A stretch of 64,000 nt of DNA from assembly GCF_008271745.1 (NCBI RefSeq), contig NZ_VKKZ01000023.1:248001-312000 (forward strand), written 5' to 3'. A program made the position numbers and the translations under genes. Below, one piece after another: positions 13,218-36,322 of the stretch (position 1 is the first letter of the stretch; the number at the start of each line of letters is the position of its first letter). Source of the stretch: Rufibacter glacialis. GTDB lineage: Bacteria > Bacteroidota > Bacteroidia > Cytophagales > Hymenobacteraceae. A model generated the notes under the pieces. The model searched no databases and was not told the origin of the DNA. It saw nothing but the letters and a program-made list of their open reading frames with translations.

Positions 13218-13493
13218 CCTGTTTCCAGTCTTTCCTTCGAGCGCCTCGCTTTTGGCCCTAGATAGACAATTACTAAGGGGGACAGACAGCGCAGGCCGAA
13301 AGGGCAGTGTGAGAAAGGAAGACGGGGCCTAGCGGCCGTGAGCGCTTAGCGGCACCTATGTAAAGAGCCGTACCTGGATCATCGCTAGAAGCGGTACTGC
13401 CAGGGGAACTGCAAAAGGCATGCACCCAAAGCATTTTAAGAAAGAAGCAGGAGAGAAGCAGTTTTGGTTGTTGGTGAGAACACCAACAACGGC
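13218..13493 (+). repeat. Dispersed 276-bp structured element, copy A
   Basis: It aligns along its whole length with the reverse complement of 36043-36322. Conserved blocks in order are TTCCAGTCTTTCC, GCCTCGCTTTTGGCC, AGGCCGAAAGGGCAGTG, GAAGACGGGGCCT and GCGGCC.TGAGCGCT, then a variable middle, then GCAAAAGGC.TGCAC. It ends in an identical hairpin, GTTGTTGGTG-AGAA-CACCAACAAC (13467-13490). Frames through it are not conserved between copies, so a non-coding element or structured RNA is more likely than a protein. Confidence 0.75.
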
Positions 13494-13529
13494 TAGACGG
13501 CTGAAGTCTTTCTACTACTCCATACAAAC

Positions 13530-13566
13530 AAAGAGAGGCTACTGCCAAAGCAATAGCCTCTCTTTT
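13530..13566 (-). terminator. Terminator of the DUF885 gene
   Basis: A 12-bp perfect stem (AAAGAGAGGCTA with TAGCCTCTCTTT) lies 60 nt past the stop codon of the minus-strand gene, with A/T tracts on both sides. Confidence 0.7.
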
Positions 13567-13624
13567 GAAAAAGTAGCAGGTAAATGTATTCTTCTTAAAA
13601 GGAAGCCCTTCGCAGCGGAAGGCG

Positions 13625-15415
13625 TTATTTCTTCTGCTGCTTCGCCCAGTCATCCATTTTCTTCTCCACCAGACGCAACGGCATGGTGCCGTCTTTCAGG
13701 AATTCATCATGGAAGGCGGCCAGCTTGAATTGGTCGCCCAGTTCTTTCTCGTATTTCTCCCGAAGCTCCTTGATTTTCAACTGGCCGGTTTTATAAGACA
13801 AAGCCTGGCCGGGAATGGCCATGTAGCGTTCAATTTCGGCAATAGCGCCTTCCTCTGAGATCGCCTCGTTAGCCATCATGTACTGGATGGCTTCCCCGCG
13901 GGTCATGCCTTTGGTGTGCATGCCTACGTCTACCACCAACCGGATGGCGCGATGCATCTCATCGCCCAGGGCGCCCATGTACTGGTAAGGGTCCGTGTAG
14001 AGGCCCAGTTCCTTGCCCAACGACTCAGTGTAAAGCGCCCAGCCTTCGCCGTAGGCGCCGTACCAGCTGAACCTCCGGAACTTGGGCAGGTTCTCGTTTT
14101 CCTGTTGCAGCGAGATCTGGTAATGGTGCCCGGGAATGGCCTCATGCAGGAACAACGACTCCATGCCAGAGGTGGTGTTGAATTTAGTGGCGTCTAAGAT
14201 GGGCAGGTAGAAAATACCCGGACGCGTGCCATCTGGGGAGCCCTGGTTGTACTCAGCGGAAGCAGAGGCAGCCCGGAAGGCTTCGGTCTGGCGGATTTCA
14301 AACGGGGTTTTGGGGGTACGCCCGAACATCTTCTGAAGGTTGGGCTCAATCTTAGCTTGAATACTCCTAAAGGCGTTTAACACCTCTTCTGGTGTTTTAT
14401 AGGGCGTGAATCGGGGATTGGTGCGCAGGTAAGTGAAGAACTGCTCCATGTTTCCTCTGAAGCCTACCTGGTCTTTCACCTTCTGCATTTCTGCAGTAAT
14501 ACGCTTTACTTCCTGCTGCCCGGTTTTGTAGATTTCGTCAGGTGCCTTATCTGTGGTGGTCCAGTACTTGACGTAGTAGGTGTAGAGGTCCTTCCCGCCG
14601 GGCACATCATTGATCCCGGTGGTGGTGCGGGCCTTGGGCAGGTATTCCTGCTGCAGGAACGTAGCCAGTTTCTGGTACGCGGGCACCAATTGGGTGCTGA
14701 TGGCTTGTTGATAGGCCTGGGTCAGGCGCTGACGGTCGGCGGCCGGAACCTCACCCGGAAAGTTCTGGATTGGGCCGTAGAAAAGGCTTTTGGTAGGATC
14801 AGAAACCACCATGCTCTGCATCTGGGGAATCATCTTGACCACCAGGGGGCGGGGCAATACCACCCCGGCCGCCATTCCCTGCCGGAAGTTGGCAATGGCA
14901 CTGTCGGCCCATACGGTGAAACCCTGTACGCGGCCCAACCAGTTCTCATAGTCTTTGGTGGTCTTGAACGGTTGATTTCCGGTGCCGGCGCCCAATTGGC
15001 CCATGGTGAGGGGCAGCCCCCAGAATTGCTGGAACGGGATCATCCAGGTGTTCAGCTTAAGGCCTTCCAGCCGGGTTTCCAGCTCGTACTCAAAGATGTC
15101 ATAGCTGATCTGGTCGTTGGCGTTCAGGCTGGCGCGGTCAAACTGGTGCAACTTGTCCAGGTGCTGCTGGTAGAAAGTCTGGAGGCTGTCCCGGAAGGCT
15201 TGGGTATTGTCGTTGGGCAGCAGGTGGTTGTAGCGGTTGTCGCCCTGTGCGGTGGCTTCCAGGGGGAAGAACCGCAGGTTCTGATCCCAGTAGGTTTCAA
15301 ACATGGTAATGAGCTGCTGGTTGGGCCACACGTTGGCGGCCGCCCCAGAATCTGCTTTCTTTTGACAGGAAAACAGCACGCCGGCCAATGCGGCCATGAG
15401 CAAAATTTTCTTCAT
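13625..15415 (-). CDS. DUF885 family lipoprotein, probable zinc peptidase
   Basis: A 596-residue lipoprotein with lipobox LFSC (Cys17). DUF885 proteins resemble M32/gluzincin-type peptidases; here HEAIPGHHYQ (HExxxGH-like) and GEGWALYTE supply the probable zinc ligands and catalytic Glu. The protein is expected at the cell envelope, facing the periplasm or outside, where it may degrade peptides. Length is usual for the family. It is monocistronic and convergent with the GapN-like gene across the repeat-rich gap. Confidence 0.85.
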   Translation of the reverse strand: MKKILLMAALAGVLFSCQKKADSGAAANVWPNQQLITMFETYWDQNLRFFPLEATAQGDNRYNHLLPNDNTQAFRDSLQTFYQQHLDKLHQFDRASLNANDQISYDIFEYELETRLEGLKLNTWMIPFQQFWGLPLTMGQLGAGTGNQPFKTTKDYENWLGRVQGFTVWADSAIANFRQGMAAGVVLPRPLVVKMIPQMQSMVVSDPTKSLFYGPIQNFPGEVPAADRQRLTQAYQQAISTQLVPAYQKLATFLQQEYLPKARTTTGINDVPGGKDLYTYYVKYWTTTDKAPDEIYKTGQQEVKRITAEMQKVKDQVGFRGNMEQFFTYLRTNPRFTPYKTPEEVLNAFRSIQAKIEPNLQKMFGRTPKTPFEIRQTEAFRAASASAEYNQGSPDGTRPGIFYLPILDATKFNTTSGMESLFLHEAIPGHHYQISLQQENENLPKFRRFSWYGAYGEGWALYTESLGKELGLYTDPYQYMGALGDEMHRAIRLVVDVGMHTKGMTRGEAIQYMMANEAISEEGAIAEIERYMAIPGQALSYKTGQLKIKELREKYEKELGDQFKLAAFHDEFLKDGTMPLRLVEKKMDDWAKQQKK

Positions 15416-15727
15416 AGGTTTTGTTTGAGGGTTGGAATAAAGGACAAGATAAAGAATTGTTGGAGGTAAACGTGCTTCTGCATCGGCTTGCCTTTACAAG
15501 AGGATTAGCCCCTAAGTGCCTGTTTTTAGGGGGATTCCCGAAAATCAGGGGGAAAAAAGACTGCTTTCTTTCTGGTCCTGCCAGAGGACGGGGAAGGAAA
15601 AAATTGCCCCAAAAGAGGCCATGACTTTCTGGTGGAGTCTTTGGGAGTAACCGGTTTTTCCTATCTTCAAGTCTCAAATGGGGCACTCCCATTCCTTAAT
15701 CTTAAATCCTAATACCTACTTAATACC
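15416..15727. other. Divergent intergenic region upstream of thyA
   Basis: 312 bp with no gene. It contains a degenerate member of the dispersed hairpin family near 15516-15555 (GCCTGTTTTTAGGG..CGAAAATCAGG) and presumably both promoters. Confidence 0.45.
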
Positions 15728-16522
15728 ATGCAGGCTTACTTAGATTTGATGCGTCACATTCTGGACAACGGGGTGAAGAAAGAGGACCGGACAGGCACCG
15801 GTACCCTTAGTGTGTTTGGCTACCAGATGCGGTTTAACCTGCAGGAGGGGTTCCCACTGGTGACCACCAAAAAAGTGCACCTCAAGTCCATTATCTATGA
15901 ATTGTTGTGGTTTCTACGCGGCGAGACCAACGTGCGGTGGCTGCAGGAGCGGGGGGTGAGCATCTGGAACGAATGGGCCGACGAAAACGGGGAGCTGGGG
16001 CCGGTATACGGGTCGCAGTGGCGGTCTTGGCCCACACCAGACGGCGGGCACATTGACCAGATTGCCCAGGTGATTGACCAGATCAAGCGCAACCCAGATT
16101 CCCGACGCCTTATTGTGAGTGCCTGGAATGTGGCCGAGGTCAACAACATGAAACTGCCGCCCTGCCACGCCTTCTTCCAGTTCTACGTGGCCAACGGCAA
16201 GCTGTCATGCCAACTCTACCAACGCAGCGCAGATGTGTTCCTGGGTGTGCCCTTCAACATTGCCTCCTACGCGCTGCTTACCATGATGGTGGCCCAGGTG
16301 TGCGACTTGGAGCCCGGCGAGTTCATCTGGACTGGCGGCGACACGCATCTCTACACGAACCACCTGGAGCAAACTCAACTCCAGCTTTCCCGCTCCCCAA
16401 AACCCCTGCCCAAGATGAAACTGAACCCAGCCGTGAAAGACATTTTCGGGTTTGACTTCGAGGATTTTACCCTGGAAGAGTATGAACCTTGGCCGGGGAT
16501 TAAGGCGCCGGTGGCGGTGTAA
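15728..16522 (+). CDS. thyA: Thymidylate synthase
   Basis: A 264-residue enzyme, the same length as the E. coli protein, converting dUMP and methylene-tetrahydrofolate to dTMP and dihydrofolate. The nucleophile Cys146 is in [10 protein letters not shown]; the dUMP phosphate-binding region [13 protein letters not shown] and folate contacts are intact. In many Bacteroidota a dihydrofolate reductase gene follows thyA. Here the next 1.7 kb is an AT-rich run of orphan genes instead. Confidence 0.96.
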
Positions 16523-16607
16523 TGTATATGTCTCAACTCTATAATATAGGTCCAATAACCGGAGGAGTTCCTGATATATGATGGTTAGGCTTTATATTAA
16601 ATAAGAA

Positions 16608-17057
16608 ATGTTCTTTGGAAGAAAAGATAGAGAACCTGTATTTGAATTAGAAGGATTTGGCTTACTAGAATTGAATCCCGACAAAAGCGATAATGAATGG
16701 TTTGGGGTCGTTCAGAATATTTCTAAAAGTCATACTGTAGAATTAACGATTGAGGTAGAGGGAAATTCTCCGCCCTCAAGTAAACAGATAGAATTTTTAA
16801 ATCAATTTTCTGAGAATATTGAAAACACAGAGCAAGCTATTTATAAACACATCTATGGTTGCTTTGCAGGTACAAAGTGGCAAAGAACTGAGAAGGAATT
16901 AAAAAGAATGTATTTCCTTTCAGCCTTAGTGCTCAAAAGAAAAAGTGAAGATGTATGGATTACCTTTGAGCCTAATTTTGACGTGCCGACGATTTTTAAC
17001 TACTTTTTTCGGTTCACATTGAGTAACAATAAAATATTTTGGAGCAACCATAACTAA
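16608..17057 (+). CDS. Orphan hypothetical protein in AT-rich island
   Basis: A 149-residue cytoplasmic-looking protein without signal peptide or membrane segment. I do not recognise the family. The composition (many Asn, Lys, Phe, Ile) and codon use are visibly more AT-rich than thyA, which suggests transfer. It is followed after 84 bp by another orphan gene, and the spacer contains a GC-rich dyad. Confidence 0.5.
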   Translation: MFFGRKDREPVFELEGFGLLELNPDKSDNEWFGVVQNISKSHTVELTIEVEGNSPPSSKQIEFLNQFSENIENTEQAIYKHIYGCFAGTKWQRTEKELKRMYFLSALVLKRKSEDVWITFEPNFDVPTIFNYFFRFTLSNNKIFWSNHN

Positions 17058-17141
17058 ATACGTAGCTCAATAACATGTAAACGCAAGGATCGACCGCCGG
17101 CCTCTGCCGCCGTTTACACAAGTACGTTTGGACCTACTAAA

Positions 17142-17594
17142 ATGATAATTTCCTTCGATTTGGATGATACCTTGATTCCTCTAAGTGATACCGGCTTTCC
17201 TACGGAGCAAAGAAACGTCTTGCAAAAAATATTGGGAGTAGAGCGAATAAGATTCGGAGCAAGTGATTTGATTAGACATCTCAAGAACCAAGGTCATAAG
17301 GTTGGTATTTATACCACCTCTTATAGGCCTAAATTAAAATTGAGGCTTCACTTATTAACTTATGGAATTAGCCCCGACTTTATAATTACTGAAAAAGAGA
17401 ATAGACGTGAATTAGCAAAAAGACACATCAGTTGTTCTAAATATCCACCTGCATTTAAGATTAATTTACATATTGATGACTCACCTGGCGTAGAACGGGA
17501 AGGGCATAAGTTCAGCTTTCAGACTATTATTATTAAAAAAGATGATACTGAATGGTTAAATAAAATAAAAACAGGGGCTAACGGCCTCTTATAA
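17142..17594 (+). CDS. Small HAD-superfamily hydrolase-like protein
   Basis: A 150-residue protein with the HAD motifs FDLDDTLIPL (motif I, nucleophile Asp), GIYTTS (motif II, Thr/Ser) and HIDDSPG (motif IV, paired Asp). It lacks a large cap domain. HAD proteins of this size are typically phosphatases acting on small phosphorylated compounds. The substrate is unknown. It belongs to the AT-rich island of single genes. Confidence 0.75.
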   Translation: MIISFDLDDTLIPLSDTGFPTEQRNVLQKILGVERIRFGASDLIRHLKNQGHKVGIYTTSYRPKLKLRLHLLTYGISPDFIITEKENRRELAKRHISCSKYPPAFKINLHIDDSPGVEREGHKFSFQTIIIKKDDTEWLNKIKTGANGLL

Positions 17595-17671
17595 AAACCA
17601 TGCTTCGGCCGACGGCCTTTCTCGTTGTTTAACCCAGAGGTGAGCGGGTATCCTTAAAACAGAAACTGAAT

Positions 17672-18244
17672 TTGAAAGAAAAGAAACGATACGAAATTCT
17701 AGAATCATTGCCAGCCTACGGACCGATGTACATACCCGTGACTGGTGATGACGAACCTTTCTTTTCAGAAGGATTTGCTATTCGATTCTACCAATCTGAC
17801 GGGAATGAATGGGTTGCTAACTTTAAACCGGGATGGACGAATTTCAAGGGAGTTTTTGATTTGAGGGACAGCCAAAACATGCTAGTTATTGCTGGCGGGA
17901 CTTGCTACCTAATGAATCCTGACCAGACAAAACCTATTTCTGTTTTTGGTTCTGGCTATGTTGATTCAATAAGTAATTTAGACGGCCGGCTCATTCTTCA
18001 GGACCAGGTTGACCTAACCATCATGGAGACCAATGGAGAATACTGCTATAGTGAAAGAATTTCTTGGGACGGAATGAAAGACCTTAAGCTTGAGAATAAT
18101 GTTGTCATTGGACTCTCCTATGACCCAATGAATGAGGAAGATCAATGGGTTGAATTCACTTATAATATTGACTCAAAACTGTTAACAGGTGGCAGCTATA
18201 ACAGATATAAAATTGAGAAAAAACCTTGGTGGAGAATAGGTTAA
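17672..18244 (+). CDS. Orphan hypothetical protein in AT-rich island, TTG start
   Basis: A 190-residue protein of mainly beta character (many Gly, Asp, Trp, Tyr), without a signal peptide. The only reasonable start is TTG at 17672; the first in-frame ATG would remove 18 residues. I do not recognise the family; the pattern would fit a beta-propeller-like or immunity-type protein, but nothing confirms that. The spacers on both sides carry short GC-rich dyads such as CGGCCGACGGCC. Confidence 0.45.
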   Translation: MKEKKRYEILESLPAYGPMYIPVTGDDEPFFSEGFAIRFYQSDGNEWVANFKPGWTNFKGVFDLRDSQNMLVIAGGTCYLMNPDQTKPISVFGSGYVDSISNLDGRLILQDQVDLTIMETNGEYCYSERISWDGMKDLKLENNVVIGLSYDPMNEEDQWVEFTYNIDSKLLTGGSYNRYKIEKKPWWRIG

Positions 18245-18340
18245 GCAAGAAAGTTCGGCCCACAGGCAAACTTTTGCTACGCCACAATTTAGCCGAGTTC
18301 GTTAATGGTAAGTCGCATTTAACGCTACAATCGCAATAAA

Positions 18341-18766
18341 ATGGAAAAGAAAGACTTGACTACCGTGACTGTTGAGACCTCTGTTCAGGCACCCGTAGAG
18401 AAGGTGTGGGAACTTTGGACTGCCCCAGAGCACATCACGCAATGGAATTTCGCCACCGATGCCTGGCATTGCCCATCGGCGGAGAATGATTTGAAACCCG
18501 GCGGGCGCTTTGTCTGGAGAATGGAAGCAAAAGACGGAAGCTTCGGGTTTGACTATTCTGGTACCTATGGCCATGTAGTGCCGCATGAAAGTATTGAGTA
18601 CAGGCTGGATGACAACAGACAAGTGACCATAACCTTTACGGAACTGGGCCAGGAGACTAAGGTGGTGGAGACCTTTGAGGTAGAAGACCTGAATTCGCTG
18701 GACCTGCAAAGATCTGGGTGGCAAGCCATCTTAGAAAACTTTAAAAAACACACAGAAGCCAAATAA
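18341..18766 (+). CDS. SRPBCC/AHSA1 domain protein
   Basis: A 141-residue START-like fold protein of the AHA1 family. The typical opening PVEKVWELWTAPEHITQWN, the middle GGRFVWRMEAKDG and the C-terminal GWQAILENFKKHTE helix are all present. Such proteins bind hydrophobic ligands or act as small stress-related factors. It returns to the GC content of the host chromosome and so marks the right edge of the AT-rich island. Confidence 0.85.
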   Translation: MEKKDLTTVTVETSVQAPVEKVWELWTAPEHITQWNFATDAWHCPSAENDLKPGGRFVWRMEAKDGSFGFDYSGTYGHVVPHESIEYRLDDNRQVTITFTELGQETKVVETFEVEDLNSLDLQRSGWQAILENFKKHTEAK

Positions 18767-18852
18767 CCACCTCCGGTAGGGCCTCACCTTGACTTCTTCC
18801 GTGGAATAAAATCTCTTTCCCACCAGTGCTGTCACCAACTGATCCTTTAGAT

Positions 18853-19152
18853 ATGAGGGTAGACCTAATGGTTATCTTTCTAGTATTGGCTATTCCAGTT
18901 TATCACCTTTTACTTTAGGTGTTCAGAAAAGCAGGAATAGGCACGGCCTTGCATAGAAAATCCTTGGTCTTACTTCCTACGGCCGTTCTTACTCCCTGCC
19001 TTTATGGAGTCGTGATGTTGCTTCTGTTTCCTGCTGTTTCTTATTATCCTGAGCAGTCTTTTAACCAAGCGGCTTGGAACGCAGAAGCGGAGGAAAGATA
19101 TGAGATGTCCGGGGATATAATCAAACGACAACTTTTGATAGGGGAATCCTGA
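18853..19152 (+). pseudogene. Small two-TM membrane protein gene broken by an in-frame TAG and truncated
   Basis: An ATG at 18853 opens a hydrophobic segment (LMVIFLVLAIPVYHLLL) that ends in TAG at 18916-18918. The same frame continues immediately with a basic loop, a second hydrophobic segment and AEERYEMSGDIIKRQLLIG. That last block is familiar from small Bacteroidota membrane proteins with (E/K)RYEMs.DLI.s..LIGk. The expected C-terminal part after LIG is absent. I read it as a nonsense-mutated, truncated gene rather than two tiny genes. Confidence 0.55.
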
Positions 19153-19256
19153 AAACCCAAACCTTCCGAAGGAAGAATGGACCGTCTTTAGGTGCATCTT
19201 TCCCCAGTGGGATTGGCGGTCATCAGAAAACAGAAACCCGAATAATTAAGAAGATC

Positions 19257-20021
19257 ATGTCTATTACAACAGACCAGGAATGGGAAGGCATGGAGAAGGT
19301 AAGCCAGGCAGTGGCTACTACTCTGAAGGAAATGAGACGGTTTGCCCAGCCCGGCATGTCTACAAAACAAATAGATGAATTCGGCGGACAGTTGCTTCAA
19401 TCTTTGGGGGCGAAATCTGCGCCAGCGTTGGCCTATGGCTTTCCGGGGTGGACCTGTATCAGCGTGAACAATGAAGTAGCCCATGGTATTCCTTCTGCTA
19501 CCAGAATATTACAGGAAGGAGATCTGGTGAATATTGATGTGTCTGCGGAGTTAAACGGCTTCTGAGCCGACAATGGCGGCTCTTTTGTGGTGGGGCAAGA
19601 CCTGCACCAGCATCAACAGCTGGTAGATGCCTCTAAATGGATTTTGAAAAAAGCCCTGCAAACCATCAAGGGCGGAGTTCGCATTGCAGAGGTAGGCCGG
19701 CTCATAGAAACCGAGGCAAAAAATTCAGGTTACAAGGTCATCCGAAATCTGACTGGGCACGGCATTGGCAGAAAGCTGCATGAAGAGCCCAGTGAGATTG
19801 CCAACTACTATGATCGCTTTAATACGACCAGGTTCAAGGAAAACTCGGTCGTGGCCGTGGAAACGTTCATTTCTACCAATTCTACCATGGCCAATACCTT
19901 ACCAGACGGTTGGACCCTGGTGGGGAACAAAGGCGGTTTTGTGGTGCAACATGAACATACCTTGGTAGTGACAGATGATCAGCCCATTATCCTCACCCAC
20001 CTGAATGGTATTTGGGAGTAG
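19257..20021 (+). pseudogene. map: Type I methionine aminopeptidase interrupted by an in-frame TGA
   Basis: The frame runs from ATG 19257 to 20021 (254 codons) with one TGA at 19563-19565. Both halves align to MetAP: NIDVSAELNGF, then the stop, then ADNGGSFVVG, where both Asp residues are metal ligands. GHGIGRKLHEEP, VETFIS and VQHEHTLVV supply the other ligands. The family usually has Tyr, Phe or Trp at the stop position, so a single TGG to TGA change explains it. All catalytic residues are intact and no other lesion is seen, so decay is recent, or the protein is restored by readthrough. A housekeeping copy must exist elsewhere. Confidence 0.8.
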
Positions 20022-20061
20022 CCTGAATGGAACGCTGTCAGCTAAAGAGAAGCGGCATATA

Positions 20062-20625
20062 ATGGAGTTAGACCAGATCTTGGATTGTATTCACCCTTTG
20101 CCCAGTGCCTCTAAAGATATAATGAAAGGGCACTTGGCAGAAGTCACCTATCCCAAAGGCCACCTATTGATAAGGGCGGACCACATAGAACCAAACCTCT
20201 ATTTTATCAAAAAAGGGATTGCCCGCGCTTTCGCGTATCAAGGGGGAGAGGAGGTGACGTTCTGGTTCGGGAGGGAAGGGGACCCGGTCATCTCCATGAA
20301 GAGCTACATTGAAAACCAGAAGGGGTATGAAAGCATTGAGCTGTTGGAAGAGAGCGTGCTGTACGAGTTGAAAGCAGTTACCCTTCAGAAGCTCTTCGTG
20401 GAAGACCTGCACCTGGCCAACTGGGGAAGGCGTTTTGCCGAACAAGAATTGATCAAGACAGAAGAACGCCTGATTTCCCGTCAATTCCGAAGTGCCTCTG
20501 AACGCTACCAGCAATTACTAAGGGAAAACCCAGACCTGGTGCAGCGGGTACAGTTAGGGCATATTGCTTCTTTCCTGGGCATTACCAGGGGAAGTCTCAG
20601 CCGGATCAGGGCAGAAATCAGGTAA
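20062..20625 (+). CDS. Crp/Fnr family transcriptional regulator
   Basis: A 187-residue regulator with an N-terminal cyclic-nucleotide-binding-like beta barrel (residues ~10-115) and a C-terminal winged helix. The recognition segment is VQLGHIASFLGITRGSLSRIR. The frame opens upstream at 20005, but ATG 20062 matches the family N-terminus. It lies 40 bp after the broken map gene and 70 bp before an SMR exporter, so control of the exporter is the natural inference. Ligand unknown; residues for cAMP binding are not evident. Confidence 0.85.
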   Translation: MELDQILDCIHPLPSASKDIMKGHLAEVTYPKGHLLIRADHIEPNLYFIKKGIARAFAYQGGEEVTFWFGREGDPVISMKSYIENQKGYESIELLEESVLYELKAVTLQKLFVEDLHLANWGRRFAEQELIKTEERLISRQFRSASERYQQLLRENPDLVQRVQLGHIASFLGITRGSLSRIRAEIR

Positions 20626-20637
20626 TTTCTGGTGGTT

Positions 20638-20653
20638 TTTACCATTTGGTAAA
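20638..20653. promoter_or_regulatory. Candidate Crp/Fnr operator upstream of the SMR gene
   Basis: TTTACCATTTGGTAAA is a 7-bp inverted repeat with a 2-nt spacer, starting 13 nt after the stop codon of the Crp/Fnr gene and 58 nt before the exporter ATG. Its size and symmetry suit a dimeric regulator. Confidence 0.45.
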
Positions 20654-20695
20654 TCAAATCTCCGCTCTACTCCTGACCTTTGGGGCAAAAAAAGT

Positions 20696-21022: not shown

Positions 21023-21106
21023 AAGAACAATTCTTGTGCTGCTCTCTTTATTGTCAGCGCGAAGAGTCATATCATTAATTTTCCCAGGAATTAACCAGGT
21101 ACCTAA

Positions 21107-22297: not shown

Positions 22298-22326
22298 GGT
22301 GATTGCATCTAGGGAAACGAAAAGTC

Positions 22327-22361
22327 TTTTCAAGCCTGTTTTTCTGAAAACAAGGGGAAAA
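22327..22361. repeat. Dispersed 34-nt imperfect hairpin (copy)
   Basis: TTTTCAAGCCTGTTTTTC faces GAAAACAAGGGGAAAA just after the MFS stop codon. Confidence 0.6.
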
Positions 22362-22584
22362 GGACAGTTTCGGCGTCACCCACTGGGGCGCAGATCTACT
22401 TCCGGGAGTTTGGAGACGCCACCTTTATTATTGTTTTCCATTAGACTCAGAGTGGTTTAGAGCCTTGTTTTAAATAACCTGATGAAAACCCCCACTTTGG
22501 CGCGGATTTACTTCCGTGCCTGACGATACAAGCAGTATAAAGGCTCCCTTCTTTAAACCTGACTTGAAAAGGAAGCCAGCCGTT

Positions 22585-28571: not shown

Positions 28572-28969
28572 GGCTGTGGAGCAGAGTGGGTCTTTTACTA
28601 TCCCTGACCTTGCTACAAGTTAAAGATGTGAAGTAGTTGTTGTCTGATAAGCTATTAGTGACAAGTAGGTTATCTTGGTGGTGGTAAACTTTTGTCATCT
28701 AGGGTTATCAGCCTATTTTAAGGCTCATCGTCTGGGTTATTGTTTTTCTACTGCTTTCAAAATGAAGGATCTAATTGTTTGGCTGGGAGGCAGGAGGTGA
28801 TAAAGGTAATAGGTGCAAGATGCCAACAGAAAATCCTATTGGAATTGGGACAGAACCTATTTCTGGGGGGTGGGCTTATCGTGTTGTTGACCTTCTGGTT
28901 TCTTCTTTCGTACATCAGGGATACCAAAAGAAGAAAATTCACCACAACAGCCTTTAACCGATAACCGAT
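28572..28969. other. Intergenic region after the permease
   Basis: 398 bp. A frame ending at 28964 could encode a short one-helix membrane peptide (LFLGGGLIVLLTFWFLLSYIRDTKRRK), but it has no good start codon and I do not call it. No repeat of the window's families was found. Confidence 0.4.
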
Positions 28970-29224
28970 ATGGCCAAGGAGAAGAGAATTTTAAAAGCAA
29001 TGTATGCCGTAGTGAAAGACCAAGAAAATCAAACCAGCTGGCCTATTGATGCCGCCGCTATCTCAGAGAAAACCCCTGGCCTCTCTTTGGGAGAGATAGA
29101 GCAGGAGATACGGGATCTGAGCCTCAAGAAGCTGGTGGAACTGGACCAGAGCCCGGAAATGATGCTTTTCTGCCGCCTCACCCCACAGGGGCTGGAAGAA
29201 GCGCAACGGGCGGCCCAAGAATAA
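28970..29224 (+). CDS. Small winged-helix-like hypothetical protein
   Basis: An 84-residue soluble protein whose helix pattern (ILKAMYAVVKD.., SLGEIEQEIRDLSLKKLVEL, RLTPQGLEEAQRA) resembles a minimal winged-helix domain. LTPQGLEEA looks like the wing-helix end seen in MarR/PadR-like folds. No family is recognised by name. It is alone in its transcription unit. Confidence 0.6.
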   Translation: MAKEKRILKAMYAVVKDQENQTSWPIDAAAISEKTPGLSLGEIEQEIRDLSLKKLVELDQSPEMMLFCRLTPQGLEEAQRAAQE

Positions 29225-29264
29225 GGGAATTGAAAGAAGCTTGAAGAGAGCTGGTGTTGCCCCG

Positions 29265-29298
29265 TTTTGGGTTTGTTTCTAGGAAAGCAGGCCCGAAA
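29265..29298. repeat. Dispersed 34-nt imperfect hairpin (copy) between convergent genes
   Basis: TTTTGGGTTTGTTTC pairs imperfectly with GAAAGCAGGCCCGAAA; it may end transcripts of both small genes around it. Confidence 0.6.
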
Positions 29299-29321
29299 CC
29301 GGAGGCGGAAAAGGAGAGAAG

Positions 29322-29669
29322 CTATTGAAATGCCTCCAGGGGTAGGGCTAACTCTTGACCCGTCATCACAAAAAAGAAATTCTGGAGCTGGTGCACATAC
29401 TCTACCGGGGCACTGGTGGCAATGTAACCGCCATTGAACACAATCTCCTTGTACTCAGGGTCTAGAGCCCATTGGCTCAACTCCTGGAATGTGTATTCAT
29501 GCTCCAGTTCATTATAGGTAGCGCCGGAAAGCCATTCCACCGTGAGGGGCATGGGCTCAAAGGCGACTTCCTGGCCTTGTAAGATAGAGATGAGTTTGGG
29601 TACGTCCAGGGCCACGGGTTTCCCAGCCTCCAAAACGATATTCCCTAACCTAAGTTCATTCGCAAACAT
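29322..29669 (-). CDS. Bacteroidota-type LR(I/L)GN hypothetical protein
   Basis: A 115-residue protein beginning MFANELRLGNIV and ending with VHQLQNFFFVMTGQELAL. This pair of motifs (xELRIGNxV at the start, VHQLQNLYFALTGxEL near the end) marks a widespread, uncharacterised family in Bacteroidota, often found in mobile or phage-derived regions. The middle also fits (F.PMPLTVEWL). No function is known. It is not accompanied by other phage genes here. Confidence 0.75.
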   Translation of the reverse strand: MFANELRLGNIVLEAGKPVALDVPKLISILQGQEVAFEPMPLTVEWLSGATYNELEHEYTFQELSQWALDPEYKEIVFNGGYIATSAPVEYVHQLQNFFFVMTGQELALPLEAFQ

Positions 29670-30081
29670 TTTGCAATATAAGATTATTCATTCCATGGTT
29701 AAAATTTAGCTTGAAAACAGGCAACTATTCCGCCTCATTCTCAGGGCTGATGGTTTTAATTGGTGATGCTTTTTATGCGGTATTCACTTGGAATAAAGCA
29801 GTTTTAAGGAATTCAGCCACCCAAGGAAAAGCAGTGAAGCGGCACTTCTTTTTCCTTGGTTTGATCAAACCCAAAGGTGTTTGTCTGCTGCGGCCTTCCT
29901 GCGTTTTAGGCCTTGTTTCGCAAAAGCAGGCTGAAAAGGCACCTGCCCCTTCTGCGGGGAAATAAATTATTACTCCTAATGGAGAGTCCTGTGCAACGGT
30001 TTGGTTTTTCTGGTGTCTATCTTTTAAAGTGCCTCACCAGAACCCGATCTTCTAACATAAACGTCTAAATTTTCTTCTCCT
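29670..30081. other. Divergent region upstream of the outer membrane receptor
   Basis: 412 bp without a supported gene. It includes a clear dispersed hairpin at 29904-29937 (TTTTAGGCCTTGTTTC..GCAAAAGCAGGCTGAAAA). Confidence 0.5.
29904..29937. repeat. Dispersed 34-nt imperfect hairpin (copy, close to consensus)
   Basis: It shows the T4-nn-GCCT-nn-TTT / AAAA-nn-AGGC-nn-AAAA layout particularly clearly. Confidence 0.65.
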
Positions 30082-32559
30082 ATGAAAAAAAGAGCCCTCT
30101 TTTTGCTGGGACTGGTATGCCTTTGCCTGAACTTTTTTGGGGCGGCCTGGGGGCAAACCACACCACCAGCCCCTGCGGTCACCGCGCCCGCCGCCACCGG
30201 GGCCATCTCTGGCCAGCTCACCGACTCACTTACGGGTAAGCCCTTTGAATTTGCCACCGTGGCGTTGCTGCAGAAGGGTACCAACACCGCCGTGGGTGGC
30301 ACTCTCACAGATGCCCAGGGCCGGTATTCGTTCCAGAACGTGGCCTTTGGGGACTATGTCTTGTCGTTCAGCTTCATTGGGTACAAAACCAAAACAAGTC
30401 CGGTGGTGACCGTGGCACCAGGAGCGCCAGAGGTGCGGGTGGGGGCCATGAAGCTCTCCCAGGCTACCACCAACCTTAAAGAAGTGACCGTGACTGGCCT
30501 CAGGCCCCGCATCACGCAGGAAGCCGATAAACTGGTGGTGAGCATTGAGGGCACGGCCCTGGCGGCGGGCCGAACGGCCTTTGATGTGTTGGCTAAGTCG
30601 CCGGGCGTGTTTGTAGACCAGGACGGCAACATCCAACTCAACGGCCGGGGAGGGGTGACCGTGATGCTGGACGGCAAGCTGACCTATCTGTCGGCGACGG
30701 ATCTGCGCAACCTGTTGCAAAGCATGTCAGCGGAGAACATCAAGAACATTGAGATTATCACCAACCCCTCGTCCAAGTATGATGCCGAAGGGGTGTCGGG
30801 TATCCTGAACATCAACCTGAAGAAAAACGAGCTGCGCGGAATAAATGGGAGCGTGTTTGGCACGTCCACCTATAACTTCAAGCAGGTGGCGGCCACTGTG
30901 GGCGGCAACATGAACTACAAGGCGGGTAAATGGAATTCCTTTATGAGCCTGGAGTACCAGCGCCGGGCCTATAACCGCGACGGTACCTTTACCCGGGTGT
31001 TCTTCCAGGAAGAGGAGACCACCTATTTTAACCAGGAGGCCTTCGGGAAAAGCAAGAACCTGGGCCCGCCGGTGCTCCGGTTGGGCACGGACTATACCCT
31101 CAATGACAAGCACAGCATTGGCGGCATGGTTTACTTTAACCGCAACACCCGGTGGGAAGACTTCAATACCGAAACCTTCATCGGCAACGCCCCGCAGCAA
31201 CCAGATCAGTTCATCAAAGCCAATAACTATGTCACCAATACCTTTACCAACTTCACCACCAATCTGCATTACGTTGCCAAACTAGACACCCTGGGCTCCA
31301 CGCTCTCCGCTGACGTGGACTTTGTGAAGATCACCAATGCTGGGCACTCAGATTTCTTCAACTACTTCGGGGCCGTAGACCCTGCCCAGCCCATTACCCA
31401 GGATTTTCTGCACGCCAACTCAGACAACGGCTTTGACATTTACTCGGGCAAGGTGGATTTCGCCAAAAAGCTGAAACGGCTGGGGAAACTGGAACTGGGC
31501 GCCAAGGCCAGCCGGGTGGTGTCTGACAACGATTCCAGGTTCTTTTTCAACAACCAGGGCCTGGTGCTGGACCCCAACCGCACGAACCACTTTCTGTACA
31601 GTGAGAATATTCTGGCGGCCTACGTGAACTGGAACCACAAACTTGGGGAACGGTACACGGTGCAGGCGGGCCTGCGGGCCGAGGAAACCATTTCCAAGGG
31701 AGAACAGCTGACTACGGGCCAAGTAACCAAACGTGATTACCTGAATTTGTTCCCCAGTATTTTTGTGCAGCAGAAGGTCTCTGAGAATTACCAGGTCAGC
31801 TACAGCTACAGCCGCCGCATCCAGCGCCCCAACTACGGCAACCTCAATCCGTTCATCATCTACCGCGACCCTTATACCTACTGGCAGGGCAATCCGTACC
31901 TGCGCCCGCAGTACACCCACGCCCTGGGCATCACGCAGACTTTTAAGAAAGACTACAACCTGGTGTTCAACTACCAGCGCCTGCAAGACGTGATCTCTGA
32001 ACTCCCCTTCCTGGACGTGGAGAACGCCACCACCATCTACACCGTGGGCAACGTAGACAACTCGCAGAACTTCAGCCTGGCCGCCATTGCCCCCATCAAA
32101 ATCACCAAGAAGTGGGACACCAATAACACCATGACCGTGTCTTACAATGAGTTCAGGATGATGGTAGACAACGTGCAGGAAGTCAACTCGCAGGTGTTGT
32201 ATGTGCTGCAGACGAACCATAACATCCTGCTGCCCCTGGGCGTGCAGATGGAAGTGAATGGGGTGGTGCGGAGTGCGGGCGTCTCAGGCCTGTACAAGAT
32301 CGCGCCCATGTGGTGGGTGCATCTGGGCTTCAAGAAAAGCTTCCTGGACAAGAAACTGGACCTGAGCGTGAACGCGAACGACATCTTCAGAACCTACCGC
32401 CTGCGCTTTGACGCCCGCCTGGGCCGCAACATCAATGACTTCGACCAGTATTTCTACAACCGCAGCGTAGGCGTGACCCTGCGCTACAACTTCAGCCGCG
32501 GCCAGAAATTCGATCCCAAACGCCGCACCAACAGCCTGGATGAATTGAACCGCACCTAA
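30082..32559 (+). CDS. TonB-dependent receptor-like outer membrane beta-barrel protein
   Basis: An 825-residue protein: signal peptide (ends GAAWGQ), a carboxypeptidase regulatory-like beta-sandwich (residues ~35-120; GKPFEFATVALLQKGT..GGTLTDAQGRY), a plug domain (~135-255; LAKSPGVFVDQDGNIQLNGR, SSKYDAEGVSGILNINLKK) and a C-terminal OMP_b-brl_3-type barrel ending in alternating aromatic strands. The family imports or senses unknown ligands at the outer membrane and usually has no SusD partner, as here. No adjacent anti-sigma/sigma pair indicates the signal. Confidence 0.88.
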   Translation: MKKRALFLLGLVCLCLNFFGAAWGQTTPPAPAVTAPAATGAISGQLTDSLTGKPFEFATVALLQKGTNTAVGGTLTDAQGRYSFQNVAFGDYVLSFSFIGYKTKTSPVVTVAPGAPEVRVGAMKLSQATTNLKEVTVTGLRPRITQEADKLVVSIEGTALAAGRTAFDVLAKSPGVFVDQDGNIQLNGRGGVTVMLDGKLTYLSATDLRNLLQSMSAENIKNIEIITNPSSKYDAEGVSGILNINLKKNELRGINGSVFGTSTYNFKQVAATVGGNMNYKAGKWNSFMSLEYQRRAYNRDGTFTRVFFQEEETTYFNQEAFGKSKNLGPPVLRLGTDYTLNDKHSIGGMVYFNRNTRWEDFNTETFIGNAPQQPDQFIKANNYVTNTFTNFTTNLHYVAKLDTLGSTLSADVDFVKITNAGHSDFFNYFGAVDPAQPITQDFLHANSDNGFDIYSGKVDFAKKLKRLGKLELGAKASRVVSDNDSRFFFNNQGLVLDPNRTNHFLYSENILAAYVNWNHKLGERYTVQAGLRAEETISKGEQLTTGQVTKRDYLNLFPSIFVQQKVSENYQVSYSYSRRIQRPNYGNLNPFIIYRDPYTYWQGNPYLRPQYTHALGITQTFKKDYNLVFNYQRLQDVISELPFLDVENATTIYTVGNVDNSQNFSLAAIAPIKITKKWDTNNTMTVSYNEFRMMVDNVQEVNSQVLYVLQTNHNILLPLGVQMEVNGVVRSAGVSGLYKIAPMWWVHLGFKKSFLDKKLDLSVNANDIFRTYRLRFDARLGRNINDFDQYFYNRSVGVTLRYNFSRGQKFDPKRRTNSLDELNRT

Positions 32560-32601
32560 TAGAAACAAGCCGGAAACGCCTCTGGTCTTGGTGGCCTCTC
32601 C

Positions 32602-32643
32602 CTGCGCTCTGCTTCCAGAGAACAGAGAGAGGCTTTTCTTTTG
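32602..32643 (+). terminator. Terminator of the outer membrane receptor gene
   Basis: GCCTCTCC..GAGAGAGGC encloses an inner CTCTG-CTTC-CAGAG hairpin and is followed by TTTTCTTTT. Confidence 0.65.
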
Positions 32644-32644
32644 G

Positions 32645-32680
32645 TTTCTGGGCTATTTTTGTGAATAGGCCCTTAAAAAA
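32645..32680. repeat. Dispersed 34-nt imperfect hairpin (copy)
   Basis: TTTCTGGGCTATTTTTG pairs with TGAATAGGCCCTTAAAA directly after the receptor terminator. Confidence 0.6.
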
Positions 32681-32803
32681 GAGGCGGGGTCGGGCAAAAG
32701 GCCTTTGGGAGACCGGTTCCTATGCGAACATTATTCTTAAGTTTGCAGAAAGAAATACGTTTTGCCCGGGCGTGCCGGGCGAAGGGAAACCAGCATTCCA
32801 CAG

Positions 32804-33754
32804 ATGATTAGAGGCTTCTACATTAGAGAGGGGGAGATCCATTGGGAGAAGAATCCAGAGAATTTGGTAGCCCCCGGCAAGGGCCGCACTATTTGGGTTG
32901 ACTTGCAGGCCCCCACTGACCATGAACAGCGGGTGGTGGAGGAGGAGTTCGGGATTGAGTTCTTCACCCAGCAGGAGGCCGCCGAGATTGAGAGCTCCTC
33001 GCGCTACTTTGAAGACGACGACATCTTTGAGGCCAACAGTGCCTTTGTGATGCACCATGACGGATCTTACAGCACGCGGCAAGTCTCTTTCATCCTGAAG
33101 AACGACATCCTGTTCACCCTGCGCCGCACCGAGATGAAGTCCTTTGCCGAGGCGGTACGCAAGCTGAAGACCATCAGAAGCGCCACCACCAAGGCCTTCC
33201 AGATCTGGCTTCTGCTCCTGGAAACCCAGATTGACTATGACGCCGATTTTATTGAGCTTCTTACCCGTACCACCAATGTGGTGAGCAAGCGGCTGGTGAA
33301 AGAGCAGTCCATTGAAGAGGAAGTACTGCTGCGCATCACCGAACTGCAGGAAAACACCATCCTCATACGGGAGAGCATCGTGGACAAGCAGCGGCTGGTG
33401 TCGTCGTTGTTGCGCAGTTACGCCGTAGATGAACCCGAGAAAGAACGCCTGCGCACCATTATCAAAGACATCAACTCGCTTTTGCAACACACCCAGTTCA
33501 GCTTTGAGCGCCTGGAGTACCTGCAGAACACCTTTCTGGGTCTGGTGAACATTGAGCAGAACCAGGTCATCAAGATCTTCACCGTGATGACGGTAGTCTT
33601 CATGCCGCCCACGCTTATTGCCAGCATCTACGGAATGAACTTTGAGGTGATGCCCGAGCTGAAATGGGTGGCCGGTTACCCCTTCGCCCTGGGTATGATG
33701 GTGCTTTCGTCTCTGTGTTTCCTGTGGTACTTCAAACGCAAGAAGTGGCTCTAG
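32804..33754 (+). CDS. corA: CorA family magnesium/divalent cation transporter
   Basis: A 316-residue protein with the long N-terminal cytoplasmic alpha/beta domain and two C-terminal membrane helices. The selectivity motif YGMNF is at the end of the first helix, and the basic tail FKRKKWL follows the second. The frame is open from 32762, but ATG 32804 (MIRGFYIREGEIHW) is the family-like start. CorA pentamers carry Mg2+ (also Co2+ and Ni2+) across the inner membrane. Confidence 0.92.
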   Translation: MIRGFYIREGEIHWEKNPENLVAPGKGRTIWVDLQAPTDHEQRVVEEEFGIEFFTQQEAAEIESSSRYFEDDDIFEANSAFVMHHDGSYSTRQVSFILKNDILFTLRRTEMKSFAEAVRKLKTIRSATTKAFQIWLLLLETQIDYDADFIELLTRTTNVVSKRLVKEQSIEEEVLLRITELQENTILIRESIVDKQRLVSSLLRSYAVDEPEKERLRTIIKDINSLLQHTQFSFERLEYLQNTFLGLVNIEQNQVIKIFTVMTVVFMPPTLIASIYGMNFEVMPELKWVAGYPFALGMMVLSSLCFLWYFKRKKWL

Positions 33755-34190
33755 GCTTCCATGGCTTGAGTTAACCGTAAGTACCTTGCTTCCTGCGTCT
33801 TCCTTTCACCTGCAAAGGGAGGAGGGGATGATTGTTCGCGCAGCAGACTTTCATCTCCGGCTTCCAAGGTTGGAAAGGGACACCAGTAAAAGCAGGGCAT
33901 TTTCTTCTATTTCCTCTCTGGTTCTACTTTATCACTGGTTCAAGTTTTCAACTTGGACCTACCATTACCGGAAGTTTGGGGCTCCGTGAGGCGATAGCCT
34001 CAAAATTGACTTTTGGTGTCTCTACCCCAACAAGAATTCCTGAGTCTGAATCAACCCCTGCCCCATTTTGAGTGGAAATGTTGATGGGGAATATTTTAAA
34101 TATAATTTGTTGTTTAACAGAGAGTTGTATTGTATTATATATTTGTAAGCTTCATGTAATGGAAGGGACTGAGGTGAAACAAAGGAAAGG
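33755..34190. other. Convergent region between corA and the Vms1-like gene
   Basis: 436 bp with no supported gene. It contains the second copy of the GGTTCAAGTT repeat (33938-33982), followed by TGAGGCGATAGCCTCA, a small dyad. The right part (34080-34150) is AT-rich. Confidence 0.5.
33938..33982 (+). repeat. Short dispersed repeat, copy 2
   Basis: GGTTCAAGTT-TTC-AACTTGGACC dyad followed by TACCATTACCGGAAGTT; it aligns with the reverse complement of 12731-12781. Confidence 0.55.
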
Positions 34191-34937
34191 CTAATAGTAA
34201 TCTTCCTGTTCATCCTCCTCTTCAGAACCAAAATCCTCTTCCTCCTCCGGCAATTCTTCGTCCTGGTGATCGGGTAGTAATTGGTGGATCAGGTCCTGGT
34301 GGCGCGGATCAAAGATCAGCTCACCTTTGAGCAGGAACCGGTTCGCGTTCATCATCACCTCATAGATGGGCGTGTGAATGTGCTTGGGGATCTTGAGAAT
34401 CCGTTCGTCGCGTTTCTGGAACGGAGGCGCTACTTTGGCGTCAAACAGGTAGGGGAGCAGCGTCTTGGAGCAGCTCAGGGCAATGCGATGGATCTGGTAG
34501 TGCGCAAAATATTCCTGCAGCCGGCCGTTGATGTTCTCAAAGAACTCCGCCGTTTCGCCCAGCCGCACGCGGGAACCTGCGCGGGACTTTCCCTTTGTCT
34601 TGAGGTACTTGATCTGGCTCTTGCCCTGCTTCTTGCGCACCATGTACGACCTGAACACTTTGTGGTGCAGGTTCACCCCATCTTCAAAATAGCCTAGGGC
34701 GCAATTGCCCGCCTGGATCAGCAGAATCACGTACTGGACCGGGTCTTCCTGCACAGGTTCCAACTGCGCGTTCAACGCCGAGAAAGGCAACGGCAACCGG
34801 AACACCACCTGCTCGTTTCCCTGAGCATCTGAGACGACTACGCGGTGCTTTTCGTGGTCATAGGTGGTCGGCAGGGCCAGGGCCTTGAGGTTCTGCAGCA
34901 CCTGCGCCGCCGTTTCTCGGGAGACAAATTGGTTCAT
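34191..34937 (-). CDS. Vms1-like release factor 1 (bacteroidetes VLRF1) family protein
   Basis: A 248-residue protein with an eRF1 domain 2-like (RNase H fold) core. The diagnostic block is ILLIQAGNCALGYFEDG, then HHKVFRSYMVRKKQGKSQ, matching the Vms1/ANKZF1 pattern (HK.F.RY.VR.KQGGSQ) in which the Gln of the loop promotes peptidyl-tRNA cleavage. The region ending ALSCSKTLLPYLF fits the later strands. The C-terminal 35 residues are almost all acidic. The frame is open to 34976, but MNQFVSRETA at 34937 is the better start. In eukaryotes Vms1 releases stalled chains in ribosome quality control; a similar role is inferred here. Confidence 0.8.
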   Translation of the reverse strand: MNQFVSRETAAQVLQNLKALALPTTYDHEKHRVVVSDAQGNEQVVFRLPLPFSALNAQLEPVQEDPVQYVILLIQAGNCALGYFEDGVNLHHKVFRSYMVRKKQGKSQIKYLKTKGKSRAGSRVRLGETAEFFENINGRLQEYFAHYQIHRIALSCSKTLLPYLFDAKVAPPFQKRDERILKIPKHIHTPIYEVMMNANRFLLKGELIFDPRHQDLIHQLLPDHQDEELPEEEEDFGSEEEDEQEDYY

Positions 34938-35029
34938 AAAGACATGTAACGGAATTTCCGCGCCGCGAAGATGCACATTGTTTCGCGAAGCGGGGAGAAG
35001 AAACGCCCTGGCCTGTTAGCGCCTGTCGG

Positions 35030-35062
35030 TTTAGAGCTTTTTTCCTGAAAACAGGCTGTTTT
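35030..35062. repeat. Dispersed 34-nt imperfect hairpin (copy)
   Basis: TTTAGAGCTTTTTTCCTGAAAACAGGCTG lies in the divergent gap between the VLRF1 and SRAP genes. Confidence 0.5.
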
Positions 35063-35151
35063 CTACTTTGGGCTGAATGGCCGGTTGGATTGCCTTTTTG
35101 GGCGTAAACTGCGTATCTTTCCTTCTCTCTTACCCCTTAACCCAGACGCGT

Positions 35152-35919
35152 ATGTGTGGCCGCTATTCCTTCAGTAAGAAAAAAGTACCCCAAGAGCATC
35201 GGTTCACTTCCAAGCTGGAGGGGTTGGTGTTCTCCCCTAATTTCGATGCCCGTCCGTCGCAGCAGATGCCGGTCATTCTCCCGGAGGCCGCCAAAGCCAT
35301 GATGGCTACCTGGGCCTCCCCGGAGAAAGAGCCCGACGGCAAGCCCACGCTGCCTTTCAACGTGCGGCAGGAGAACCTGCTCTACATCCCGCGGTTCCGG
35401 GAGTTGCTGCCCCGCCACCGGTGCCTTATTCCCGTGGACGGCTTCTTTGAGTGGAAGGAGTTGGAGGAGGAGGAAGAACCGGAAGCACCTGCGCCTGCGC
35501 CTGCCGCTGATCTGGGCCTGGATCTGTTCGGGAACCCCATCCGCAGCAAAGAAGAGAAGGCCCGTTCCCGCAAGCCGAAACCCCGCAAGCAGAAATACCG
35601 CTTCACCCTGAAAAACGAGGAGCCCTTCGGCCTGGCCGGCCTCTGGCGGGAATCCCTGAATCCGGGTACCGGCGAACTGGTGGCGCATTTCAGCATCATC
35701 ACTACCCAGGCCAACAACGCCGTACAGCCCTACCACGACCGCATGCCCGTGATCCTGACCCCACAGAGCGAAGAGATCTGGCTGGACAACAGCCTGGCTG
35801 AGAAGCAATGGTACCACGTGCTGCAACCCTATGACGCCAAGCAGATGAAGGTAATGGCCATTGATGAGGCAGAAAGCATCTGGGGCAATTATGTGGCGCC
35901 GGCGTTGAATTCAAAATGA
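35152..35919 (+). CDS. SRAP domain protein (HMCES/YedK), abasic-site DNA-protein crosslink factor
   Basis: A 255-residue SRAP protein. The start is fixed at ATG 35152 because the family nucleophile is Cys2 (MCGRYSF), exposed after Met removal; upstream in-frame codons are untranslated. The active-site Asn is in FNVRQE, the Glu in GFFEWKE and the His in YHDRMPVIL. SRAP proteins form a covalent thiazolidine link to abasic sites in single-stranded DNA. An insertion of about 45 residues (Glu-rich, Pro/Ala-rich, then Lys/Arg-rich) interrupts the core after FEWKE. It leads the run SRAP, dinB, dnaE2 on one strand. Confidence 0.92.
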   Translation: MCGRYSFSKKKVPQEHRFTSKLEGLVFSPNFDARPSQQMPVILPEAAKAMMATWASPEKEPDGKPTLPFNVRQENLLYIPRFRELLPRHRCLIPVDGFFEWKELEEEEEPEAPAPAPAADLGLDLFGNPIRSKEEKARSRKPKPRKQKYRFTLKNEEPFGLAGLWRESLNPGTGELVAHFSIITTQANNAVQPYHDRMPVILTPQSEEIWLDNSLAEKQWYHVLQPYDAKQMKVMAIDEAESIWGNYVAPALNSK

Positions 35920-36042
35920 CACGGTTGTAGTTTTGTTTTAACGCCTGTTTCCTAAAATAGCCCTTTAGTTGGCTTTTGGGGTATTGATAGGAAGGATGTC
36001 CTTCTGCTAGTCCAGCTGCCTTAGCTGAATTTGTGATTTCCT

Positions 36043-36322
36043 GCCGTTGTTGGTGTTCTCACCAACAACCAAGACTGCGGCTCCTTACTACTCATTCCAC
36101 TTATGGCTGTTCTGTGCACGCCTTTTGCTTCTGCTGGCGTAGCAGACGCTTTTAGCGAGGCCCTTATGCTGGGTATTTCCATAGCTGCCCTCCGAGCGCT
36201 CATGGCCGCGAGGCCCCGTCTTCCCCTCTCGCACTGCCCTTTCGGCCTGAACTGTCCTTCTCTCTTATTGATCATTTATCTAAGGCCAAAAGCGAGGCGC
36301 GCTCGGGAAAGACTGGAACAGG
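36043..36322 (-). repeat. Dispersed 280-bp structured element, copy B
   Basis: On the minus strand it has the same block order as copy A (13218-13493) and the identical terminal hairpin GTTGTTGGTG-AGAA-CACCAACAAC (36046-36069), preceded in both copies by TTGG and followed by GGC. Differences are spread along the length, with the middle third the most variable. Confidence 0.75.

Follow-up and report, generated by a model that had tools for sequence, protein, structure and literature searches.

A structured-RNA repeat of Rufibacter glacialis and its relatives, possibly copied in trans and overwritten in place

Within 64,000 nucleotides of Rufibacter glacialis DNA (the window; contig NZ_VKKZ01000023.1, positions 248,001 to 312,000), an element of 276 to 280 bp occurs in two inverted copies. 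What is this element, and how did it come to occupy its positions? A first-pass annotation of the window had named three candidates: a non-coding RNA gene, a miniature inverted-repeat transposable element (MITE), or a retroelement-like unit that moves in trans. Judging from sequence comparison, it is nearly certain that both copies belong to a structured RNA family. Beyond this, the likeliest, although unproven, reading is that the family is a non-autonomous mobile RNA element, copied in trans and overwriting its older copies; we give it a probability of about 0.5.

Copy A (13218-13493, plus strand) and copy B (36043-36322, minus strand) align over their full length, at the positions and on the strands originally assigned to them. 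Using copy A as the query recovers B over positions 1-276 (76% identity, E 7.7e-45), and covariance model R1, constructed from members of the family, finds A at E 1.4e-36 and B at E 8.3e-40. No third copy appears in the 64-kb window, where the next R1 match reaches only E 0.2. The two window copies are thus confirmed, but the impression of a two-copy element is not, as they are 2 of 48 in the genome.

Fold and covariation of the core

The core of the element is about 125 nt long and, in the RNAalifold consensus, combines the P1/P1b helix with a variable P2 arm and the P3 hairpin. Specifically, P1 (10 pairs) is followed by P1b (GCGC with GYGC), a conserved internal loop, P2, P3, and then GUGAGCGC, beyond which lies an A/C-rich tail with one to three repeated units in most R. 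glacialis copies. What had been described as a variable middle corresponds to the P2 arm plus this 3' tail, and the repeated layout also reaches farther upstream. The consensus was computed on A1, a MAFFT alignment of 68 cores that was not fitted to structure (154 were extracted, 69 were non-redundant, and one with a mis-set 5' end was removed). A second alignment, A2, contains 95 matches from 87 chosen loci, including distant genomes; it is model-fitted and leans to the structure by construction.

On A1, 91.8% of the cells are paired, compared to 76.2% after shuffling and at most 54.3% when the partners are slid. Both sides have changed in 18 of 24 pairs, and the covariation score of 0.433 (0.185 shuffled) is equalled by 0 of 500 shuffles. 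The structure-fitted A2 gives both-side changes in 22 of 24 pairs and a score of 0.551 (0.194 shuffled). For P1 (A1 columns 11-20/114-123), 93.2% of the cells are paired and 9 of 10 pairs change on both sides, while for P3 (A1 columns 126-137) 99.6% are paired and 3 of 4 pairs are doubly changed once distant relatives are added; the 5' GCGC covaries with the inner GYGC. The covariation analysis that the first-pass annotation had proposed thus gives a strong signal, with shuffles and slides in place of R-scape. Single sequences fold with z-scores of -6.60 (L221), -5.00 (L295), -3.82 (L047), -3.67 (L229), -3.48 (copy B), and -1.74 (L299), and copy B as a whole (280 nt) with -2.66.

The mismatches indicate which strand folds. 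G.T, A.C, and other mismatches number 150, 13, and 120 on A1 and 226, 21, and 201 on A2. Since G.U far exceeds A.C, the strand read in the first-pass annotation is the folded one. The same asymmetry would arise in a strictly single-stranded DNA element, that is, one in which a DNA strand folds, as in REPINs (inverted doublets of repetitive extragenic palindromic [REP] sequences) or the ends of IS200/IS605, and is moved by a Y1 transposase of the REP-associated tyrosine transposase (RAYT) type, RNA being incidental. However, a multi-helix fold with conserved loop letters exceeds a transposon-end hairpin, and we consider this account decidedly unlikely. Altogether, covariation, G.U asymmetry, and order-wide distribution strongly support the proposal of a non-coding RNA.

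No Rfam 15 family was found on the core, in the window (gathering score) or in the copy A region and 21 relatives' loci (permissive E-values); the few sub-threshold matches all lie off the core, two of them being to a hairpin next to copy A and to its upstream palindrome. A coding element was rejected, as one frame of the tail is uninterrupted in several copies, yet early stops break it in others (e.g., the R. ruber copies and L037-L040, by eye) and the P2 arm changes length freely. As annotated, no conserved reading frame was seen, and the largest cluster of open reading frames (ORFs) consists of spurious ORFs over the repeat. A pseudoknot between the 5' GAGCGC and the 3' GAGCGC, for which copy B offers a pairing of 36192-36206 to 36292-36306, was set aside, since distant relatives change the two independently (by eye, with no formal count).

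Two further features of the core and its surroundings were seen by eye. In distant genomes of the family, short GGGGTAGGGGCCC-type palindromic inserts occupy P1b/P2 or the P3 loop (L225, L227, L228, L233, L235, L242, L246, and L247) and look as if they were tolerated only within such arms or loops. The R. ruber copies (L139, L047, L070, and L261) carry a second conserved module, CTGATGTGCGCAGCACGGGCTCG...CTAGCGG..., about 100 nt upstream of the core, which is possibly structured.

Shared addresses and exchanged sequence

A BLAST search of the R. glacialis genome with copy A yields 41 matches (best 40 of 80 candidates scored), and covariance model R2 finds the 48 copies, the weakest at E 8.3e-17 (best 150 of 988 first-look candidates scored; reporting limit E 0.001). 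With 150 candidates scored in each, R2 finds 29 copies in congener G015, 46 in G009, 52 in G006, and at least 150 in G010. Rufibacter belongs to the Hymenobacteraceae, order Cytophagales, from which the order of the coded relatives was inferred. Across the family, a model search scoring at most 18 candidates per genome is positive in 68 of 150 genomes and 4 of 6 genera, with single copies in G068, G116, and G128 and none in G074. Across the order, 17 of 241 genomes are positive, 10 of them in the family and the others in families f5, f11, f15, and f19; six order genomes outside the family hold 1 to 10 copies each with R2, all weaker relatives. Across the class, under stricter filters and with 7 candidates per genome, 3 of 395 genomes are positive, all of the same order. 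A pattern scan of named genomes returned at least 111 stretches, and among the matches listed all are from Rufibacter, Pontibacter, or Sabulibacter; a BLAST tally of 26 of 59 genomes includes some that match the REP hairpin only. No match was found in viral contigs (one exact pattern) or in plasmids and phages. Far from the few copies that the first-pass annotation had named as evidence against its proposal, the search of Hymenobacteraceae genomes that it suggested thus returned many.

Many of these copies share their positions between species. An orthologous neighbor flanks the element in both members of 62 cross-species locus pairs; by reading, 55 of these match in both side and strand and 7 do not (some loci were fetched twice, so that not all pairs are independent). 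For a direct comparison, we used 26 of the 46 G009 copies, namely those with listed coordinates, which are the better-scoring ones rather than a random sample. Of these, 14 share locus and orientation with an R. glacialis copy, 13 of them on the evidence of both flanks and one on that of a single flank; in another five matches the orientation is inverted or the side is wrong.

The sequences at these shared addresses do not correspond. The 14 same-locus pairs have a mean identity of 0.706, compared to 0.719 for permuted pairs, and 3880 of 5000 permutations were at least as high. The subfamily clearly differs in 8 of the 14 pairs (9 by the script's raw label). Mean identity is 0.770 for pairs within R. 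glacialis and 0.730 for cross-species pairs with G009. Since same-locus pairs are no better than random and subfamilies switch, addresses are kept while their contents are exchanged. Copies largely group by species in a tree built from 135 cores of 12 taxa, with 18 label changes against a minimum of 11 and a shuffled mean of 88.5.

Presence and absence also vary at syntenic sites. The SRAP-dinB gap measures 1071 bp in the window, including copy B; in G006 it is 334 bp and in G013 528 bp, with no element match in either. The dinB gene has 7 close orthologues, counting that of R. glacialis, with the element nearby in 3; in G004 and G015 the element lies near dinB without the SRAP neighbor. For the DUF885 gene beside copy A, 5 of 16 genomes of the genus carry the element on the 3' side and one more, G006, on the 5' side. 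This locus was rejected as an empty-site test because the gene order differs, by eye, where the element is absent. Together, the 48 copies, the lack of an encoded protein among those examined, the syntenic presence and absence, and the same-locus exchange lend indirect support to the suggestion that the unit moves in trans.

We propose the following explanation. The element would be a non-autonomous mobile unit that encodes no protein and relies on copying in trans. Fresh copies would land between genes, more commonly on the downstream side of a gene, and would also take over the sites of older copies, through homologous exchange or a reaction akin to homing; such replacement would retain addresses and homogenize sequence. 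What preserves the fold may be recognition of the RNA, or strictly of one DNA strand, during copying, or else its work as a ribonucleoprotein. A further possibility, which we hold to be unlikely, is that a protein-less RNA element rewrites its own copies through an RNA-dependent reaction, either retro-homing or RNA-guided conversion. Such an element would be SINE-like (after short interspersed nuclear elements) or self-homing, its addresses inherited and its content repeatedly overwritten.

The main rival is gene conversion between copies useful to the host. Here the copies would be a family of host non-coding RNA genes, transcribed and with a cellular job; selection would maintain how many there are and where they lie, and conversion would homogenize their sequences within each genome. 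The job could be that of an abundant ribonucleoprotein scaffold, a stabilizer in 3' untranslated regions, or a boundary element. The 55 of 62 locus pairs agreeing in side and strand fit this account, as does the order-wide distribution. So does the gene context: of 134 distinct copies flanked on either side by long ORFs, 93 have a co-directional upstream gene (no genome-wide baseline). However, the downstream gene runs in the same direction in 68 and the opposite direction in 66 of these copies, members of one family differ in copy number, some having none or one and another at least 150, and the ten neighbor proteins at shared positions have no common theme. Eight of the ten have Pfam matches (RecJ, CysRS, a cyclase, a response regulator, a phosphoribosyltransferase, two M16 peptidases, and DUF885) and two have none. 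We regard host genes as a somewhat unlikely explanation. A riboswitch or other cis-regulatory leader was rejected, given the even downstream directions and the varied functions of the neighbors.

Some cores also lie close together. By motif in the sampled loci, five pairs are less than 1.2 kb apart, four of them head-to-head and one in tandem (L002 1505-1984, L036 939-1620, L093 114-574, L118 1777-2453, and L351 2541-2993); more head-to-head pairs are seen among the model matches (G118, G258, and L308).

Composite frame and neighboring genes

The core is embedded in a larger frame, which in the window comprises the following features.

13218-13385, plus: copy A core RNA (R1 covariance-model match, E 1.4e-36)
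13228-13237, plus: copy A P1 5' strand, pairing with 13314-13323 with one mismatch (window places by arithmetic)
13314-13323, plus: copy A P1 3' strand (A1 columns 11-20/114-123; window places by arithmetic)
13326-13337, plus: copy A P3 hairpin, GGCC-loop-GGCC (A1 columns 126-137)
13338-13345, plus: copy A near-invariant GUGAGCGC after P3 (invariant or nearly invariant A1 columns)
13410-13425, plus: copy A first tail unit, GCAAAAGGCATGCAC type
13467-13490, plus: copy A terminal REP-type hairpin, a separable element
13155-13203, plus: copy A upstream palindrome, GACCTCACAGG.../...CCTGTGAGGTC type (arms 13155-13178 and 13180-13203)
36154-36323, minus: copy B core RNA (R1 covariance-model match, E 8.3e-40)
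36114-36129, minus: copy B tail unit
36046-36069, minus: copy B terminal REP-type hairpin
36359-36381, minus: copy B upstream palindrome, GAGACAAGGCGGTGCC..GTCTC type (imperfect, one base shorter; by eye)
36374-36487, no strand: minisatellite upstream of copy B, 24/46-bp units (Tandem Repeats Finder)

The repeat unit is composite. We counted its parts in 46 R. glacialis regions that cover the 48 copies, reading one core in each. Around the conserved motif, the usual frame has a palindrome about 60 nt upstream and a tail unit about 90 nt downstream, with the REP hairpin, where present, about 150 nt downstream. Upstream palindromes stand at a fixed distance in 38 of 46 loci. The GAGACAAGGCGGTGCC type fills the narrow upstream slot in 23 and occurs nowhere else in the regions (at most 4 substitutions), and the GACCTCACAGG type fills the same slot in 15, with 7 more elsewhere. 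The tail unit lies at +87 to +92 in 39 of 46 loci, with 16 extra matches elsewhere at 4 substitutions, some by chance.

The hairpin GTTGTTGGTG-AGAA-CACCAACAAC, followed by GGC, is present in both A and B, as was first annotated. It is not, however, the general end of the unit but a separable REP-type palindrome, found at +146 to +151 in only 9 of 46 loci; in R. glacialis and other genomes it also occurs apart from the core, either on its own or as an inverted doublet. In copy A, the arms of the upstream palindrome are 24 nt long and 92% complementary, and its motif (13164-13194) has one match in the window and none in shuffles. The upstream palindrome of copy B is a weak copy of a different type, missed by substitution-only scans. 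Terminal inverted repeats were sought in A, B, and their flanks: no pair bounds A, and those of B have no counterpart in A. In the strict sense, then, the MITE reading is not supported.

Two observations concern the immediate surroundings. A hairpin with short T-runs at 13535-13560, just past the 3' end of the DUF885 gene, is a possible bidirectional terminator facing the 3' end of copy A. The minisatellite lies directly upstream of B, and similar GCATTCC/GCGTGAGAGACAAG units stand ahead of many R. glacialis copies.

The single-stranded DNA account introduced above gains from the fixed-spacing palindromes upstream and sometimes downstream, from the four Y1_Tnp genes in the R. glacialis genome, and from G022 (L052), where an ORF that weakly matches Y1_Tnp (E 5.4e-4; its 20.5 bits fall short of the Pfam cut-off of 23) has the REP hairpin at its start. 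Against it, the downstream REP is confined to those 9 loci, and no replication-strand bias was found in G006, where 17 of the 42 copies listed, out of 52, lie on the presumed leading strand (skew from 20 samples, hand count). In addition, neither the core nor any of its palindromes was found next to the R. glacialis Y1 genes, which were rejected as partners on this ground. One Y1 transposase gene, in L187 (R. glacialis C10:394273-394494), is flanked by its own TTCCGGATT...AATCCGGAA palindromes and is a separate RAYT/REP-like pair.

No recurring partner protein was recognized among 1154 ORFs of the sampled loci, based on the 25 largest clusters, judged by their first residues, with single occurrences unchecked. 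This bears on the view that the element is a guide RNA standing alone, similar in kind to omega-RNA or bridge RNA, with its protein acting from elsewhere. Guided cutting or homing would explain the refilling of sites, and the same-site exchange and the compact fold, with its conserved core and variable arms, agree with it. Nonetheless, we judge it highly improbable, given that no Rfam family matches the element and that no nuclease or recombinase ORF was seen to recur beside the copies (the R. glacialis genome was not searched for IscB, TnpB, or IS110). The alternative that the copies mark the edge of a known insertion sequence found no support in the adjacent ORFs, with no insertion-sequence database compared.

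Several results count against a mobile RNA element that overwrites its copies. Copy A alone folds weakly (z -0.96 over 120 nt and -1.92 over its whole 276 nt). In the core tree, the four rows of R. sediminis form no cluster, and R. glacialis and G009 each contain at least two subfamilies. The non-random choice of G009 copies, noted above, is a further weakness. About half of the sampled positions are common to the two species, which weighs against a purely selfish, freely moving element, since such an element would not need shared positions. The G006 and G013 gaps are shorter than that of R. glacialis by more than the element length, so that the element-free sites could be losses. No sharp outer edge and no target-site duplication was noticed in the 46 R. 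glacialis loci, whose edges are too diffuse for a fair test of the latter. Finally, no transposase, reverse transcriptase, or nuclease is tied to the element; common families do recur beside copies (18 ABC transporter-like ORFs in 17 loci, 12 ORFs in 11 loci, and smaller groups), and the four R. glacialis Y1 genes have none of its palindromes within 1.5 kb.

Comparison with known systems

The closest mobile counterparts are REP sequences and REPINs with their RAYTs, which, as far as PMC3116915 was available to us, are likewise dispersed, intergenic, palindromic, non-autonomous, and multicopy; the terminal hairpin shared by A and B belongs to this REP kind. The REPIN of that source is an inverted REP doublet linked to a RAYT, whereas here we find a branched core of about 125 nt with strand-specific covariation and no RAYT gene beside the R. 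glacialis copies. The defining inverted REP pair is lacking as well, as the downstream REP is rare and the upstream palindromes are unrelated to it in sequence.

Screens for structured RNAs list "mobile/repeat sequence candidates", i.e., structured motifs in many copies without a fixed gene context (PMC11109978, in the part accessible to us). Our family resembles these candidates in both respects but differs in having no transposase nearby; that part describes no exchange of content at shared positions, nor does it mention Hymenobacter, Pontibacter, Spirosoma, Cytophaga, or names in Bacteroid-. Bacteroidetes motifs are listed in the accessible part of PMC2864571, where those with accessions are in Rfam; Bacteroides-2 and GUCCY-hairpin are shown without accession and are set beside the present family here without direct comparison. 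No published description of the element was found in the literature searched, as far as its texts were available (subscription journals and preprints were outside its scope), and the family is apparently undescribed. Because the core fails those defining features of REPINs and MITEs that could be tested and has no Rfam match, we have filed it as a new structured-RNA repeat family.

HEARO, the omega-RNA of IscB, is a structured RNA that sometimes occurs in many copies without its protein; the present element differs from it in lacking an Rfam match and any recognized associated ORF. Eukaryotic SINEs are small structured RNAs that encode no protein, reach high copy number, and form species-specific subfamilies. 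The present family is SINE-like in all of these properties, but an RNA intermediate or reverse transcriptase is only hypothetical here, and sequence is exchanged at shared sites. In genomes of the Rufibacter group, a strongly covarying family without an Rfam 15 match occupies dozens of loci, at least 150 in the richest. With shared addresses, exchanged contents, and no protein found, it fits neither ordinary non-coding RNA genes nor ordinary insertion elements, and this pattern makes it testable whether bacteria have SINE-like or RNA-driven, self-homogenizing elements.

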